From Methylocystis rosea (lineage in GTDB: Bacteria > Pseudomonadota > Alphaproteobacteria > Rhizobiales > Beijerinckiaceae), in NCBI RefSeq assembly GCF_003855495.1, contig NZ_CP034086.1, positions 2,579,501-2,643,500 of the forward strand: a stretch of DNA of 64,000 bases, read 5' to 3'. Shown one piece after another: positions 47,301-53,330 of the stretch. Every line of letters begins with the position of its first letter. Position 1 is the stretch's first letter. The notes beneath the pieces are model-generated. The model worked only from the letters and a program-made list of their open reading frames with translations, made no database searches and was not told where the DNA came from. The position numbers and the translations under genes were made by a program.

Positions 47301-49115
47301 ATGTCCGTCTTTAAAGTTTATGTGCGCGTGCTGGGGCTGTTGCGGCCTCAGGCGCGGCTTGCGCTCATACTGGTCGCGGCCAATCTGGCGCTCGCGATCT
47401 CGGCCTTCGCCGAGCCGATTCTCTTTGGGCGCATCATCGACCGCATGACGCGCGCGCAAGCGCCCGGCGCAACTTTGACGTGGAGCGATCTGCTGCCGCT
47501 CGTGTCCGCCTGGGCCGCCTTCGGCCTGTTTTCGATCGGCGGCGCCATCCTCGTCGGGCTCAACGCCGATCGTCTCGCGCATCGCCGGCGGCTTGCGATC
47601 ATGTCGGATTATTTCGACCACGTTCTCAGCCTGCCGCTGAGTTTTCACACCAACGTCCACTCCGGACGTCTGTTAAAGATCATGCTCGACGGGGCGAACG
47701 CCATGTCGGGGCTGTGGCTGTCGTTCTTTCGCGAGAACTGCGCGTCCTTCGTTGCGCTTTTCGTGCTGTTGCCGGCGACGCTATTCGTCAATTGGCGGCT
47801 CGGCTCGCTGCTCATGGCGCTTGTCGTGATCTTCTATTTCGTGACGAGCTTCGTCCTGCGACGCACGGAAGATCTGCAGGGTCAGGTCGAGCGCTACAAT
47901 TCGACGCTCGCCGAACATGCGTCGGATGCGCTTGGCAATATCCCGGTGGTGCAGAGCTTTACGCGCATCGAAAGCGAGTCGCATGCGCTGAACCGCATCA
48001 TCGATGACGTCATCGCGGCACAAATGCCTGTTCTCTCCTGGTGGGCCTTCGTCGCCGTCGCCAGCCGCGCCTCGGCGACGCTGACGATTTTGGCGATTTT
48101 CCTTTTGGGAATCTGGCTGCATTTGCGCGGCCTCGCCACGATCGGCGAGATCGTCGCCTTCATGAGCTTTGCAACCATGCTGATCGCCCGCCTCGAACAG
48201 GCGGTCGGCTTCGTCAATGTCCTATTCCAGCAGTCCGCGAAGATCGCGGAATTCTTCGGCGTCATCGACACGCCGGCGAGCGTCGCCGATCGCCCGCATG
48301 CCCGCGACGCGGAGCGGCTTGTGGGCGCGGTCGAATTCGACAACGTCACCTTTGCCTACGACGGACGACGGCCCGCGGTCCGCGACGTGTCGTTTACAGC
48401 GAAACCTGGCGAGACGATCGCGCTCGTCGGCTCGACGGGCTCTGGAAAATCAACGACGCTCGGGCTTTTGCATCGGGCCTTCGATCCAGACAGCGGCTCT
48501 GTGAAAATCGACGGCGTCGACATCCGCGAATTCACTCTAAGCTCGCTTCGCCGCAACATCGGCGTCGTCTTTCAAGAGCCGATGCTGTTTGCGCGATCGA
48601 TCGAAGAAAATCTGCGAATCGGCAATCCGGACGCGACAGACGAGGAGATCGCCCATGCGCTCGAACTGGCGCAGGCGACGGAATTCGTCGCGCATCAGAG
48701 CGACGGGCGGGCGACGCGCGTCGGCGAACGCGGCCGCTCGCTCTCGGGCGGCGAGCGCCAGCGGCTCTCGATCGCCCGGGCGCTGTTGAAAAACCCGCCG
48801 ATCATGGTCTTTGACGAGGCGACCTCGGCGCTCGACGCGACGACCGAGCGGATGATCCAAAAGGCGCTGGAGGCGGCGATGAAGGGCCGCACGACCTTCG
48901 TCATCGCCCATCGGCTGGCGACGGTGCGCAACGCCGACCGCATCCTCGTCTTCGATCAGGGCGAGATCGTCGAGAGCGGCGGCTTCGACGAATTGGTCGC
49001 GAAAGGCGGTCGCTTCGCGATGCTCGCGGCGGCGCAGTTCATGACCGAGCCCACCGTTTCGACGACGCCGCTCGACGGGGTTTACGAAGCCGGCGCGCAG
49101 CAGCCGGCGGGGTAG
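47301..49115 (+). CDS. ndvA: Cyclic beta-1,2-glucan ABC exporter NdvA/ChvA-like
   Basis: 604 residues, a half-size ABC exporter with membrane and ATPase domains fused. The membrane domain starts VYVRVLGLLRPQARLALILV; the ATPase has GSTGSGKST, QEPMLFARSIEENLRIGN, LSGGERQRLSIARALL and VFDEATSALDATTE. The overall sequence and length match NdvA/ChvA, which export cyclic beta-1,2-glucans to the periplasm for osmotic adaptation. The glucan synthase gene (ndvB/chvB) is not nearby. Near the ChvG/ChvI genes it fits an envelope theme. The region just after it carries a terminator and then a foreign-looking island. Confidence 0.9.
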   Translation: MSVFKVYVRVLGLLRPQARLALILVAANLALAISAFAEPILFGRIIDRMTRAQAPGATLTWSDLLPLVSAWAAFGLFSIGGAILVGLNADRLAHRRRLAIMSDYFDHVLSLPLSFHTNVHSGRLLKIMLDGANAMSGLWLSFFRENCASFVALFVLLPATLFVNWRLGSLLMALVVIFYFVTSFVLRRTEDLQGQVERYNSTLAEHASDALGNIPVVQSFTRIESESHALNRIIDDVIAAQMPVLSWWAFVAVASRASATLTILAIFLLGIWLHLRGLATIGEIVAFMSFATMLIARLEQAVGFVNVLFQQSAKIAEFFGVIDTPASVADRPHARDAERLVGAVEFDNVTFAYDGRRPAVRDVSFTAKPGETIALVGSTGSGKSTTLGLLHRAFDPDSGSVKIDGVDIREFTLSSLRRNIGVVFQEPMLFARSIEENLRIGNPDATDEEIAHALELAQATEFVAHQSDGRATRVGERGRSLSGGERQRLSIARALLKNPPIMVFDEATSALDATTERMIQKALEAAMKGRTTFVIAHRLATVRNADRILVFDQGEIVESGGFDELVAKGGRFAMLAAAQFMTEPTVSTTPLDGVYEAGAQQPAG

Positions 49116-49140
49116 GCCACGCAATGGCGCGCACCTTTTT

Positions 49141-49164
49141 GTCCACCACCGTTTGGACTTTTTT
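49141..49164 (+). terminator. Probable terminator of ndvA
   Basis: Short hairpin GTCCA/TGGAC with an 8-base loop, followed by six T residues. A second small hairpin GTCTTT-TTG-AAAGAC follows at 49172-49186. Both lie at the left border of the AT-richer island. Confidence 0.5.
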
Positions 49165-49275
49165 GAGTCTAGTCTTTTTGAAAGACACGCACGCTATGCC
49201 ATTTCCGGTTGATATCACGTTTCAACGAGAAATCGTACCTCGCCCGCCTGCACCGATTTTGCTAGGGTTTAGCTG

Positions 49276-50292
49276 ATGTCGCTCCTCCCTTCCACAACCA
49301 AGGTCTTTGATACGTATTGGCGTTTTGCAGCCGAGCGATTGGCGATGTATTATTGCCGCCTCGAAAACTCGGTTGGTCCGTGGACTGAGGATCGGATTTT
49401 ACGCGAGTATCGCTTCACGAACACGTTTCGTGCAGCGGATCGTGTCAGCCAATATCTTATCAGAGAGGTTCAATATCGTAACGATCGCTCTCAGACACCC
49501 GTCGACGTCTTTTTTCGAACAATGCTTTTCAAACTATTTAACCGCATTGAAACGTGGGAGCGGCTCGAGAGGGAATTAGGTCCCTTGAACTGGCAAAGCG
49601 CTCAAATGGATTCGATAGCAGGCGTCCTCGACCGAATGGCGGAAAGGGGCCATCGCCTATATTCGGCCGCTTATATCATGCCCTCGCCGGCGTTCGGTTA
49701 TCCGCGTAAGCACACCAACCATCTAGCGCTGCTAACGAGAATGATGCACGATGGACTGCCAGGTAGACTCACTCGCGCTAAAAGCTTGTGCTCAGCTTAT
49801 GAGATGATTTTGGATTATCCGGGGTTGGGACCATTTTTAGCATTTCAATACACAATTGACTTGAATTACTCCACGCTTCTTGAATTCGACGAAGGAGATT
49901 TCGTCGTAGCCGGTCCTGGAGCTCTCGACGGCATCGCCAAATGTTTTAAGCAGAACGGCTTAGCCAGCCCCGAAGCTATTATATATGCTATGGTTGATTG
50001 TCAGGAGGAGGAATTCGCGCGCCGCGGTCTTAATTTTGGGGGACTCTTCGGTCGACGACTTCATCCCATCGATTGCCAAAACCTCTTCTGCGAGATTTCG
50101 AAGTACGCTCGCATTGCTCATCCCGATGCGGCGGGTCTATCTGGTCGAACCCGTATCAAGCAGCGCTATCGGTCGACAGTTCGCTCAGAAAATATTCCTC
50201 CCTACTTTCCGCCTAAGTGGAGACTGGAGCCTTATCCACTGAAAGTTATATCTCCGATACGAAGCGAGCCCGCTCAATTATTTCTCTTTTAG
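49276..50292 (+). CDS. Alpha-glutamyl/putrescinyl-thymine pyrophosphorylase / 5-hmdU DNA kinase helical family protein
   Basis: 338 residues. The sequence shows the family's conserved stretches in order: YRFTNTFRAADRVSQYLIRE (about 53-72), FRTMLFKLFNRIETWE (about 83-98), KHTNHLALL, DLNYSTLLEF, VAGPGALDGIAKCF, LHPIDCQNLFCEISKYARI and SGRTRIKQRY. I recognise these from the group described with thymine hypermodification in phages, where enzymes replace the pyrophosphate of 5-(pyrophosphoryl)oxymethyl-uracil by an amine, and from related DNA kinases. A bacterial chromosomal copy has no proven reaction. It faces, tail to tail at 14 bases, the MazG-like gene. AT-richer composition than the neighbours suggests acquisition. 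Confidence 0.8.
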   Translation: MSLLPSTTKVFDTYWRFAAERLAMYYCRLENSVGPWTEDRILREYRFTNTFRAADRVSQYLIREVQYRNDRSQTPVDVFFRTMLFKLFNRIETWERLERELGPLNWQSAQMDSIAGVLDRMAERGHRLYSAAYIMPSPAFGYPRKHTNHLALLTRMMHDGLPGRLTRAKSLCSAYEMILDYPGLGPFLAFQYTIDLNYSTLLEFDEGDFVVAGPGALDGIAKCFKQNGLASPEAIIYAMVDCQEEEFARRGLNFGGLFGRRLHPIDCQNLFCEISKYARIAHPDAAGLSGRTRIKQRYRSTVRSENIPPYFPPKWRLEPYPLKVISPIRSEPAQLFLF

Positions 50293-50306
50293 GGAGCAGA
50301 AAAATA

Positions 50307-51968
50307 TCAGTCGTCTGCCAGGGCAATCGCTGTGCAATAGAATTCGCCTGTGGCTCCTCGCAATGTCGTGGTGCGAAAAGAAATTATATTTCGATCCCAA
50401 AAAGCTTTTCGAACAAGGCCGGCTGTCTTCACGCTAATTTCATTGCCTTCGAGTTCTCTAATTTGCAGTGCCGAAAGATTGGGCTCACTGGGCTCGAGAC
50501 CCACGGCACCGAGGACGGCGCGTTTTATGACTTCAACGCGTGTCGCATCATCTATTGCCCGACTGCTATCGTTGCTGTCTTGCACTTGGGAGGGGAACTC
50601 CTGTTTAAGCTCGTCTGCGGCGACGCGGGCCGATCCAATGCCCGCCACCTTGCCGGTCAGCCGCACGGAAACCTCTGGCTTAAAACTGATCAAGCGCTTG
50701 TTCAGATCCACAACTACAGTTCCCTGTTCCTCACACCGTAAACGATGGAACAAATCATGGCCATTTACGATGGCGTCCTCCCACTCCCAGTATCGGTTAT
50801 TCGCGACTTCTAGGCCCGCTACGAGGCTGTGGATGAACTTTAAAAAGCGAAACGTGATTTCCGTTCGATCTGGAAAGAGACGCACGGCGATATCGGGCTC
50901 TCGTCCACCTCGCTGCTCGGCAAGGCGCTCGCCTTCGGAATGAATGGCCTTAATGATCGCTTCCTCTACGATCCTCGCGCGGGCGCCATCCTCGACCTCG
51001 TCAATTGAAGGATTGGCCTTTCTTTTCCGCTTCATTAGATCGCGCAAGACTGGGGACCAACCAAGCTTTGCCGCGTTTGCAATGTGCATGACGTCGTGAA
51101 AGCGATATCCGTCGTCATCATAAGCGTTGTCGGTGAGATCATCGCCTAGGCGCCTGCCGTCGAAGTACATGCGTGACCGGCCCTTTGCGATCGTCACGAA
51201 TGCGACCTCGAATTGGCGAGGAAACTGCTGAAGCGGCAGGCATCCTTCATCGTGTAATGGTGTTGGGTGCGATCTGTCTCGTCTGAAAGAAACCTTCTTT
51301 ATATTTTTCTGCGCGATATCGCTTAAATTCAGTTTGTAGATACTTGCCAAGGCGGATACGTTCCAAGCGATCTCACCAAGCAAGTCGTTTATCGACCGGT
51401 CGGAAAGACCTGTGTTGAGTTCTAGTTCGATCGCTGGAAGCTGTCGTCGCAAAAGCTGCGCGCTGAGCTGCCACAGTAACGCCAAGCACACTACAACCAA
51501 GGTCTTAGGCTCGGTGCGGGCCGTTAAATAAGCTATCGACTGATAGTCCTCGAACTTCATACGCTTTGTACGTTTCGGGAAATTCTTTGCCGCCCGAAGG
51601 AACTCATCTCGCTTAAGTGGATCAAGGACGCAGCGAATGCGGTTCGCGCGAGCGTCGTCCCCTTCAATCTCTCGCTTTATGTTGGCGATGTCATGCGCAA
51701 AAATATTAATCGGCTTCTGTGGGTTAGCGATACCTGCGAGGGAAAAGCAGTACCAGATGACGTCACCCAACTCCTCAATGATCTCTTCGTTTGCAGCATC
51801 CCACTGTTCATCTCCACCCTCGGCAAGAAGGCGCTTCTTAATTGCTGAGACAACTGAACCTATTTCGGATGCAAGGCCGTAGGTGGCAATATCGAGTCTT
51901 ACCTTTTCGGGTTTACCCACTGATTGATCAGTTGATCGCACAAATGTGTCGTAAGCGGATACAAGCAT
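50307..51968 (-). CDS. Double MazG-like NTP pyrophosphohydrolase with MazG-associated C-terminal domain
   Basis: 553 residues from ATG 51968; a longer frame would run into the upstream gene. The first MazG-like unit has GLASEIGSVVSAIKK (31-45) and EEIIEELGDVIWY (61-73), giving the E..E/E..D metal-binding pattern except that one glutamate is serine S38. A second, weaker unit (LLGEIAWNVSALASIYKLNL, about 196-215) lacks the acidic signature and may be structural. Then comes a domain with DDDGYRFHDVMHIANAAKLG (284-303) and a conserved ERLAEQRGG, resembling the C-terminal domain fused to MazG in DNA-modification gene sets. MazG proteins hydrolyse NTPs or dNTPs to NMP and PPi, so this one may act on a normal or modified nucleotide. 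Confidence 0.75.
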   Translation of the reverse strand: MLVSAYDTFVRSTDQSVGKPEKVRLDIATYGLASEIGSVVSAIKKRLLAEGGDEQWDAANEEIIEELGDVIWYCFSLAGIANPQKPINIFAHDIANIKREIEGDDARANRIRCVLDPLKRDEFLRAAKNFPKRTKRMKFEDYQSIAYLTARTEPKTLVVVCLALLWQLSAQLLRRQLPAIELELNTGLSDRSINDLLGEIAWNVSALASIYKLNLSDIAQKNIKKVSFRRDRSHPTPLHDEGCLPLQQFPRQFEVAFVTIAKGRSRMYFDGRRLGDDLTDNAYDDDGYRFHDVMHIANAAKLGWSPVLRDLMKRKRKANPSIDEVEDGARARIVEEAIIKAIHSEGERLAEQRGGREPDIAVRLFPDRTEITFRFLKFIHSLVAGLEVANNRYWEWEDAIVNGHDLFHRLRCEEQGTVVVDLNKRLISFKPEVSVRLTGKVAGIGSARVAADELKQEFPSQVQDSNDSSRAIDDATRVEVIKRAVLGAVGLEPSEPNLSALQIRELEGNEISVKTAGLVRKAFWDRNIISFRTTTLRGATGEFYCTAIALADD

Positions 51969-52014
51969 CAGACGCTCGTTTCGAATTAATAAAGAAAAAA
52001 CGGACAAATTTTTT

Positions 52015-52617
52015 CTATGACCAAGCTCCCGGTCGCCCGCGACAACCCCGCTCCGGCAAGGTCTCAAACCACTCGTTTACAGCCGCCACAAATGCGCTTG
52101 AATACCTGGAACGAGCATCTCGGACGTTCGGGTAAAGATCGTCTCCCTCAAAGTCGCGCAAGTGAGATGGTATCGCAATAGCAGCTCTGCCAAAGTACGT
52201 GAAATCGTCGCTCCATAGAACATGCTCGCAACCAGTATCACGCGCGAGATTATCGGCATTCAAGCTTCCGTCGGGAAAGCTATGATGAGATCGCTCTTGA
52301 AGCCATCCACCCCTTTCGTCGTGATGATAGATGTTGTCGCCATAAGCGCGGCTTTGGTTGCCCTTGAAGAACGGACGCTTAATCGTAAAGCGCGGATTAT
52401 CCCAGTAGTCTTGAAAGCTACATTTTCCGGTTACGCGCAGGACGCAAATTATGCGTCCCAAAAGCCCGTTTTTCTTACAACCACAACCGACAACAATGTC
52501 ACCGAGCTGCGCGGACGAACGTATCCTCGGTTTGCATGTTGCAAGCGTACAAACGCCGTGAAATGGGTTAGGAGCGAATCCATAATCGCGTGCAATCTTG
52601 TATGAGAATACCCGCAT
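52015..52617 (-). CDS. Nucleotide modification associated domain 2 (Nmad2) protein
   Basis: 200 residues. The opening MRVFSYKIARDYGFAPNPF, followed by HGVCTLATCKPRIRSSAQLG and then YGDNIYHHDERGGW, DNLARDTGCEHVLWSDDFTY and YFGRAAIAIP, matches the Nmad2 family, which was defined by its occurrence beside base-modification genes. The family's biochemical function is not established. Residues such as C23, C28 and conserved histidines could form a metal or active site, but this is only a guess. It lies 46 bases upstream of the MazG-like gene and 27 bases downstream of the small Rossmann-like gene, on the same strand, so a single operon is likely. Confidence 0.75.
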   Translation of the reverse strand: MRVFSYKIARDYGFAPNPFHGVCTLATCKPRIRSSAQLGDIVVGCGCKKNGLLGRIICVLRVTGKCSFQDYWDNPRFTIKRPFFKGNQSRAYGDNIYHHDERGGWLQERSHHSFPDGSLNADNLARDTGCEHVLWSDDFTYFGRAAIAIPSHLRDFEGDDLYPNVRDARSRYSSAFVAAVNEWFETLPERGCRGRPGAWS

Positions 52618-52644
52618 AGCTGTTCACATAGTTAGCCGGGAGTC

Positions 52645-53124
52645 TTATTGGCAACGAATATGGACAGTCGCGCGGTCAGAGACTATTGACCGGTCCGGTT
52701 TCTCCCATATCTCAGCGCCGCTGATAGCGTCAGCAAGACGCTCGCTACCGAGCCGCAACATTGACTCGGCCTGATCTTCAAAGGTGGGCGGGTATTTCAT
52801 TCGAGCGCCCGCGACAATGCCAATGGTTCTCTTTCCAAGCTGGTTAGAAAGACCCGCCGCATCACCCAAAATGCAGTCTTCATTTTCCATTTCAGGCAGC
52901 AAGAAAACACATAAACTTGATCCTGAAATGCAAGCAACGAGGGCAGCAGGTAGCTCTGTTTCACCAGCTTGCGCCGCGATGGCGGCATCATTCTCCACTT
53001 TTACCTCGCAGACGGTATAGCCACTTCCCTCAAGGCCAGCCCTCACTTTGTGGCGACCAGCCTCGGTAGCAGTGACGTACACGAGGCACGCTCTCTTTTC
53101 TTCGGACAATTCGACTTGCTCCAT
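52645..53124 (-). CDS. Small Rossmann-like protein of unknown function
   Basis: 159 residues from ATG 53124; the longer frame to 53226 has no better start. The pattern is alternating strands and helices: ACLVYVTATEAGRHKVRAGL, then ALVACISGSSLCVFLLPEM, then DAAGLSNQLGKRTIGIVAG. This is a Rossmannoid arrangement, resembling TIR-like or nucleoside deoxyribosyltransferase-like domains, but I cannot assign a family. No membrane segment or signal. It is the first gene of the three-gene minus-strand operon with Nmad2 and MazG-like genes, so a part in the same nucleotide chemistry is inferred. Confidence 0.55.
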   Translation of the reverse strand: MEQVELSEEKRACLVYVTATEAGRHKVRAGLEGSGYTVCEVKVENDAAIAAQAGETELPAALVACISGSSLCVFLLPEMENEDCILGDAAGLSNQLGKRTIGIVAGARMKYPPTFEDQAESMLRLGSERLADAISGAEIWEKPDRSIVSDRATVHIRCQ

Positions 53125-53298
53125 AACGATCCTCAGCGGCAAATGAAATTCAACTTTTGGTCGACTGCTCGTCGGACAAGACAGCCGAACGAATCGGACC
53201 CGCCTTACCCAGAAATTTCGGCCCAATTGGCCTTCCGGTCAATCGGGCGCTGGGTGAGGTGTGCGTAACTGCTAAGGACGCGCTAAACGTGAAATTTC

Positions 53299-53330
53299 AA
53301 AAAAAAGCCGCGCCCCTTTCAGGGCGCGGC
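53299..53330 (-). terminator. Terminator of rpsF-rpsR
   Basis: On the minus strand, GCCGCGCCC-TGAAAG-GGGCGCGGC followed by eight T residues. A perfect 9-bp GC stem with a 6-base loop, 25 bases after the rpsR stop. It closes the rpsF-rpsR transcript at the right edge of the island. Confidence 0.9.

Follow-up and report, generated by a model that had tools for sequence, protein, structure and literature searches.

A probable mobile conflict cassette of nucleotide-modification families in Methylocystis rosea, with a TIR-derived protein that may offer a terminal thiol

The closest described counterparts of the locus treated here, a four-gene island (g1 to g4) in a 64,000-nucleotide stretch of Methylocystis rosea contig NZ_CP034086.1 (the whole stretch is hereafter the window; it is part of a 3.64-Mb contig in a genome of 4.21 Mb), are predicted systems of biological conflict. 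The DefensePredictor paper describes predicted, unvalidated systems with aGPT-Pplase, MazG, MazG-C, dUTPase, UDG and nucleotide-modification (NMAD) domains, together with a validated system that has a 5-hydroxymethyluracil kinase domain, and relates that several of its systems were also predicted in Burroughs et al. 2015 (PMC13092281). A second point of comparison is deazaguanylation, in which 7-deazaguanine is linked to the N-terminus of the CD-NTase in type IV cyclic oligonucleotide-based antiphage signalling systems (CBASS) (PMC11996544). The N-terminal glycine is the CD-NTase acceptor, and in qatABCD the QatB protein requires that its N-terminus be unstructured and bear a glycine motif (PMC13279940).

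The island of the window encodes an HMUDK_hel protein (g1), a MazG-MazG_C protein (g2), an Nmad2 protein (g3) and a degenerate TIR protein (g4). We suggest that these genes came in by horizontal transfer and form a modular cassette of biological conflict, directed against phages and working on modified pyrimidines, a reading to which we give a probability of roughly 0.4. That the island is a mobile conflict cassette is very likely; that it carries out pyrimidine chemistry with a functional thiol arm is a tentative proposal; and that a base is linked covalently to that thiol is rather doubtful. A role in defence is proposed because of the mobility of the genes, the defence genes that neighbour their relatives, and the DefensePredictor prediction (PMC13092281).

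Insertion site and recurrence of the gene set

The segment from 49114 to 53296 is a real insertion. Loci L113-L119 of the genus, the closest ones, whose flanks are 90-97% identical to those of the window, match it up to position 49113 and resume the match at 53297-53301 after 53-62 bp, and the 4.2 kb between these points is therefore extra in the window (Table 1). Of 37 genus genomes, that of the window among them, 36 yielded the rpsR-rpsF region. Among the 30 genus loci compared, again with that of the window, 12 are empty sites with 50-77 bp from ndvA to the rpsR side; L121, L125 and L126 hold 0.5-0.9 kb of other DNA at this junction, L112 has another insert, and 13 gave no usable ndvA match. 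GC content is 0.48-0.56 within the island versus about 0.59-0.70 in the flanking DNA. The original prediction, made from the letters of the window, had described an AT-richer, self-contained block of four genes between ndvA and rpsF-rpsR, and this description is borne out: all four open reading frames are present, the site is empty in relatives and the block recurs elsewhere. It had further reported no integrase, phage structural or methylase genes, and indeed no such family was matched by the four island proteins in scans of Pfam, NCBIfam, PADLOC and phage protein families. ARAGORN found no tRNA in the window.

Genome G017, which is 99% identical over the query, carries at the same junction a different insert of two genes (L141:11405-13689) with a GC content of 0.52-0.54. 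One gene encodes a GSCFA/WcbI protein, the sole Pfam match, and the other a protein of no recognised family; no PADLOC model matched this insert. Because this different low-GC insert lies there, the ndvA-rpsR junction has apparently received foreign genes on more than one occasion, and it is perhaps an insertion hotspot.

Table 1. Features of the island and their positions in the window
Feature	Position	Strand	Basis
Inserted low-GC island, ndvA to rpsR terminator	49114..53296	.	Empty-site comparison, junction sequences, GC profile
g1, HMUDK_hel protein, 338 aa	49276..50292	+	Fold model: helix-hairpin-helix (HhH) DNA-glycosylase superfamily, near 5-PmdU glycinyltransferase
g2, MazG-MazG_C protein; start at ATG 51968 gives 553 aa, start at TTG 52067 gives 586 aa (extendable open reading frame)	50307..51968	-	PF03819 E 2.3e-8, PF18722 E 2e-61; homologue start in L005
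MazG domain in g2	51702..51878	-	Residues 64-122 of the 586-aa frame
MazG_C domain in g2	50676..51263	-	Residues 269-464 of the 586-aa frame
g3, Nmad2 protein, 200 aa	52015..52617	-	Fold model: YTH/ASCH/EVE (PUA-like)
g4, degenerate TIR (ThsB-like) protein, 159 aa, C-terminal Cys	52645..53124	-	PADLOC PDLC00418; intact-TIR homologues at the same operon position
Codon of the penultimate g4 residue, Cys158, which is proposed as thiol acceptor	52651..52653	-	76/76 close-homologue rows; 27/27 TIRs directly upstream of Nmad2 with near-terminal Cys

The gene set recurs. A survey of 385 class genomes, that of the window among them, gave matches to the g4 profile in 6 (E <= 0.01), to MazG_C in 13, to Nmad2 in 13 and to HMUDK_hel in 8. 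All 6 genomes with the g4 profile also carry MazG_C and Nmad2; the latter pair is common to 9 genomes (hypergeometric p 1e-12), HMUDK_hel and MazG_C to 6 of the 8 HMUDK_hel genomes (p 1e-8), and HMUDK_hel and Nmad2 to 4 (p 5e-5), where the hypergeometric values, like the Fisher values, treat related sequences as independent. The four genes stand in the order g4-g3-g2-g1 on one strand, adjoining an open reading frame read as ruvC, in a metagenome-assembled genome (L005, the single locus from a g4-profile scan of genome contigs that was limited by exact patterns), and all four lie together in G425 (L043). G421, a genome that the g4 profile does not list, has g1, g2 and g3 together with a further degenerate TIR (L046), and in G427 HMUDK_hel is on a separate contig (L035) from a TIR-Nmad2-MazG_C-UDG set (L034). 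That unrelated genes were gathered by chance is hardly credible. Such an account could point to the orientation of g1, convergent to g2, g3 and g4 in the window, and to the limited meaning of a GC shift, which by itself indicates no more than foreign origin; against it stand the one-strand order in L005, the joint presence in L043 and main-pair p values of 1e-8 to 1e-12, and the co-occurrence survey refutes it.

Of the 61 genomes closest to that of the window, which is itself counted in, only 3 contain MazG_C. Relatives of the genes are found on plasmids and in viral contigs, some of them beside defence genes, namely HmaC, CBASS phospholipase with SIR2, CBASS phospholipase, SIR2 and Shedu, with further TIRs beside several. 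An alternative is that the enzymes serve host DNA hypermodification or nucleotide housekeeping, installing or clearing a modification in the bacterium's own nucleotides. These families reportedly took their names from work on hypermodified DNA, to which Iyer et al. 2013 and papers on phage hypermodification belong, and one HMUDK_hel gene lies beside dnaQ and dnaE on an Erythrobacter plasmid. However, the patchy presence, the clean insertion, the plasmid relatives and the defence neighbours fit conflict genes better, and the island has no P-loop 5-hydroxymethyldeoxyuridine (hmdU) kinase or hydroxylase family; we hold this alternative to be quite improbable.

The four proteins and the near-terminal cysteine

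Three of the proteins belong to named nucleotide- or DNA-modification families, as had been proposed, and all three exceed the Pfam cut-offs: g1 matches HMUDK_hel (E 2e-104, 349 bits against a cut-off of 25), g2 matches MazG and MazG_C (for the latter 207 bits against 29.7), and g3 matches Nmad2 (E 3.2e-60, 204 bits against 26.1). Among phage families, g1 matches phrog_2396 (2e-56) and g2 matches phrog_229, 'MazG-like pyrophosphatase' (4.6e-26). The NCBIfam scan of the island proteins gave below-cut-off matches only, PDB sequence searches with g1, g2 and g3 gave no match at E <= 1, the g1 profile retrieved from the PDB aquaporins only, taken as chance, and the viral contigs searched with g1 held no relative. 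Of the 'double MazG' attributed to g2 in the original prediction, Pfam recognises one domain, and the second MazG-like stretch remains a by-eye reading. The assignment of g1 as a 5-hmdU-kinase-helical homologue holds as to family, although the match is to the helical domain only: Pfam finds no P-loop 5-hmdU DNA kinase domain in g1, and no hmdU synthase, kinase or hydroxylase family in the island. HMUDK_hel models as an HhH DNA-glycosylase-superfamily fold rather than a kinase; the model resembles AlkA/OGG glycosylases, and the closest solved structures also include the PUGT transferase and a queuine-salvage enzyme (DUF2419). For Nmad2 the model is a YTH/ASCH/EVE-like (PUA-like) fold, with VcaM4I and a 5-hydroxymethylcytosine (5hmC)-specific endonuclease among its weak structural matches. 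Residues C28, K29, R33 and D40 of Nmad2 mark a putative conserved pocket.

The gene of the fourth, first described as a small Rossmann-like protein, is present, and the identity of its product is corrected: judged from its sequence, g4 is a degenerate TIR (ThsB-like) protein. No Pfam family lies above the cut-off, the PADLOC ThsB (TIR-like) model PDLC00418 matches with E 6.8e-7 (longer frame, to 53226), and the PADLOC ThsB model aligns full-length with the Tistrella relative (E 4.6e-93). TIR NADases and cyclases have a catalytic glutamate motif; in an alignment of TIRs, g4 has Ala89 at the column of the usual catalytic Glu, and the protein of the window has probably lost TIR catalysis. The g4 profile gave three weak matches only against the PDB, and the plasmid search with the g4 sequence itself gave no match. 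Identity as a plain nucleoside deoxyribosyltransferase was rejected, for only 1 of 78 listed homologues (P0160) bears PF05014, and the relative in the L033 cassette bears PF08937.

A cysteine near the C-terminus characterises these proteins. All 27 TIRs whose gene directly precedes Nmad2 carry it within the last six residues, versus 6 of the 35 other TIRs scanned, and 2 of those 6 (L032 and L034:10606) are members of the Nmad2 group that the distance rule overlooked. These 27 TIRs, which leave out window g4, L034 and L100 and include two L079 TIRs and the near-duplicate pair L085/L094, are a different set from the 27 loci tabulated by module below. The Cys is the last residue in 15 of them and the second last in 7, and the tail ahead of it is variable (e.g. 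KRHPC, TSRC, RVRCQ, SGCAA, KRNKC). The other cassette proteins have such a Cys in 1 of 22 (UDG), 2 of 35 (MazG_C), 1 of 22 (HMUDK_hel) and 6 of 39 (Nmad2) cases. Within the clade of the window the CQ ending is kept in every row, window included, of the homologue set of Table 1, which excludes the fragments P0019, P0197 and P0198. The near-terminal Cys is kept even in TIRs that lack the catalytic Glu; since g4 is probably without TIR catalysis, the thiol tail is probably what selection keeps in this genome's TIR protein.

The catalytic residue bears on a further alternative. Kongming and Thoeris are models of nucleotide-signalling defence, and in a system of their kind a TIR NADase or cyclase effector would be switched by a modified nucleotide that the base-modifying enzymes produce or remove. 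Retention of Glu at the catalytic position in 18 of the 27 Nmad2-linked TIRs agrees with this, as do the further TIR genes beside several cassettes. However, Glu is absent in 7 of the 27 (in one by a gap) and ambiguous in 2, window g4 has Ala instead, and in 15 of the 42 cassettes tabulated below a carrier module stands without any TIR. A general effector role for TIR catalysis was rejected on the seven losses and that of g4, and we regard nucleotide signalling as improbable.

Cysteines of this kind are also seen in other settings. Two TIRs not adjoining Nmad2, L034:11851-12405 and L090:4992-5462, the second near HMUDK_hel on an archaeal plasmid, have a Cys near the end (QCE and TGCGRS, respectively). 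A short plasmid TIR in another context ends in IKDC (L087:5001-5399 and L089:5001-5399, the L089 plasmid with resistance genes nearby). In L067, L096, L097 and L102, which have no TIR profile match in the locus, it is Nmad2 itself that ends in or near Cys.

Alternative modules in related loci

Loci from genomes, plasmids and viral contigs were scored with profiles built from these same loci, so that the resulting tabulation is descriptive rather than proof. It holds 42 loci sorted by module: 27 with TIR and Nmad2 (window included), 10 with a carrier module, and five of the six test loci. Not included are L145, the 'other' loci L032, L037 and L041 (the latter two near contig ends), L071, L072, L090 and L109, L094 and L100 as near-duplicates, and any locus that has just Nmad2 or just TIR. 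Cassettes of the TIR-Nmad2-MazG_C-UDG type are known from Tistrella and Beijerinckia, and sister cassettes with an ACP-like protein from Allocoleopsis and Streptomyces. None of the 27 TIR+Nmad2 loci matches the AcpS, acyl carrier protein (ACP)-like, thymidylate synthase (TS)-like or IrrE profiles, and reciprocally none of the 15 carrier-module loci matches the TIR or Nmad2 profiles. The test loci were drawn from records unlisted by the Nmad2 plasmid search, so that lack of TIR+Nmad2 is expected in them and only the presence of the carrier module is tested; 5 of the 6 have it, and the exception, L145, has neither module and no MazG_C.

The carrier loci have TS-like and IrrE genes in 15 of 15, AcpS in 8 and a match to the ACP-like profile in 13; of the two exceptions, L110 has an ACP found by Pfam instead and L035 has none. 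'TS-like' is the NCBI annotation name of a protein without a Pfam TS match. The small carrier protein has a D/N-S-L/K motif in 13 of 14 cases, that of B. glumae being without it by this pattern, and lies near a helix-turn-helix gene in annotated loci. Pfam identifies AcpS in L042 (PF01648, E 1e-12) and ACP in L110 (PF00550), and NCBI annotates a protein of L146 as ACP; five further ACP-like proteins had no match in Pfam, and profile comparison to the L110 ACP gave probabilities of 22% for one ACP-like group and 0.1% for the other. AcpS attaches phosphopantetheine, that is, a thiol on a long arm. The TIR+Nmad2 and carrier modules may thus replace each other, both supplying a mobile thiol. L032:9821-12498 combines a carrier module and UDG with a short Nmad2 match and a 76-aa TIR fragment ending in RNKC, apparently an unfinished exchange of one module for the other.

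A second alternation concerns the enzymes. UDG-like genes are present in 17 of 27 TIR+Nmad2 loci and 5 of 15 carrier loci, and HMUDK_hel in 9 of 27 and 10 of 15; the two are never together (0 of 42), and L081, which lies at a record end, lacks both. MazG_C is found in 23 of 27 and 14 of 15, respectively. Because both enzymes occur in both groups of loci, either pairs with either module. The UDG-superfamily assignment is exemplified by L033 (PF03167, E 3.3e-7). Sister loci also carry a dCTP deaminase-like gene (PF22769, L029) and a TS gene (PF00303, L082), and these point to deoxyuridine-type pyrimidines. Two loci have further chemistries around a TIR-Nmad2 pair, with no MazG_C match: L082:5971-11404 (Sinorhizobium) with TS, an O-methyltransferase and HMUDK_hel, and L085:5989-10631 (Parabacteroides) with HMUDK_hel and a radical SAM protein.

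The exchange of a UDG-like enzyme for HMUDK_hel, the likeness of the HMUDK_hel model to AlkA/OGG and that of Nmad2 to modified-base readers, including its weak endonuclease matches, would also suit a modification-dependent base-excision defence, in which Nmad2 recognises a modified phage base, the glycosylase-fold protein excises it, and accessory roles fall to MazG and to the TIR or carrier protein. Brig1 is a precedent (PMC11078745). Such a defence nevertheless leaves the near-terminal Cys and the ACP/AcpS module unexplained, and with PUGT and DUF2419 among the closest structures of the HMUDK_hel model, DNA excision is not implied. On balance we consider base excision unlikely, though with some real claim to attention.

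In the cassette as we favour it, MazG-MazG_C would hydrolyse or screen deoxynucleotides, as may be expected of a family that acts on nucleoside triphosphates. The glycosylase-superfamily enzyme (HMUDK_hel here, UDG-like elsewhere) would act on a C5-substituted or otherwise modified pyrimidine, which it would excise or substitute at its C5-methylene, and Nmad2, to go by its modelled fold, would recognise the modified base. The TIR-derived protein would be the effector or the target, by way of the thiol in which its variable C-terminal tail ends, a place taken in sister cassettes by the acyl-carrier-like protein with, presumably, a phosphopantetheine thiol. A C5-activated pyrimidine, once read by Nmad2, would then be removed or passed to the thiol. 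In the conjugation version, MazG_C and HMUDK_hel or the UDG-like enzyme would prepare or transfer the base and Nmad2 would read it; that a C5-activated pyrimidine nucleobase or nucleotide is in fact attached to the C-terminal Cys of the TIR protein or to the phosphopantetheine of a dedicated ACP is a minority expectation.

With these loci, orphan 'nucleotide modification associated' domains become a modular system with a testable rule, by which MazG_C is accompanied by either of two modules, both of which may bring a thiol arm, and by either of two glycosylase-type enzymes. The loci also show TIR proteins retained after loss of the catalytic glutamate. If the thiol is not the acceptor, the rule still suggests which proteins to co-express in these predicted defence systems. 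The observation behind the original prediction is confirmed, and its interpretation, a system that alters or monitors nucleotides, possibly against phages, is partly supported. Neither of the two outcomes named there as refuting it came about: the profiles uphold the three families, and L005 and L043 each hold all four genes.

Comparison with known systems

Thoeris is suggested by g4, a ThsB-like TIR derivative, but the TIR of the window lacks the catalytic Glu and no ThsA match was found by PADLOC among the four island proteins, to which that scan was confined; identity with Thoeris was rejected. The partners that define Kongming are the KomA deaminase, SIR2 and HAM1, none of which is among the four proteins, and type IV CBASS was likewise rejected, as neither a CD-NTase nor a QueC-like Cap9 is among them. 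Phage thymidine hypermodification, e.g. the 5-PmdU glycinyltransferase gp46/PUGT of phage PaMx11 (PDB 8z2m), is near to g1 only in modelled structure; it differs in that g1 has no PDB sequence match and the island no hmdU synthase or kinase. Brig1 and defence glycosylases, compared by superfamily only, resemble the sister cassettes in having a UDG-superfamily protein, in place of which the window has HMUDK_hel.

The resemblance to deazaguanylation is one of principle, and the cassette may work like it by analogy. Both would use nucleobase-biosynthesis enzymes repurposed in defence and a conserved residue at an unstructured protein terminus as the acceptor, a proposed one in the cassette. Whereas deazaguanylation uses a deazapurine, the QueC family and an N-terminal Gly on CD-NTase or QatB, the cassette has pyrimidine-type enzymes, a C-terminal Cys and a TIR protein, and its conjugate is hypothetical. 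Conjugation, if it did take place, would parallel deazaguanylation with a pyrimidine and a thiol, as a novel way of joining nucleobase to protein in immunity, unrelated to the first. A row of genes on Rhizobium and Agrobacterium plasmids (L091, L092), annotated as TIR, HhH-GPD glycosylase/DNA lyase, 7-cyano-7-deazaguanine synthase, a second TIR and a sugar kinase, is possibly a purine-side cousin of the cassette.

No description of a C-terminal thiol or an ACP module in such systems was found in a literature coverage that was partial, without subscription papers, so that absence from print is not established. The DefensePredictor systems have the same domain families as the cassette and were called defence by a machine-learning model; the exclusivity of the modules and the C-terminal Cys are absent from the passages of that text compared (PMC13092281). 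The cassette is thus best filed as a new variant of these predicted nucleotide-centred conflict systems.

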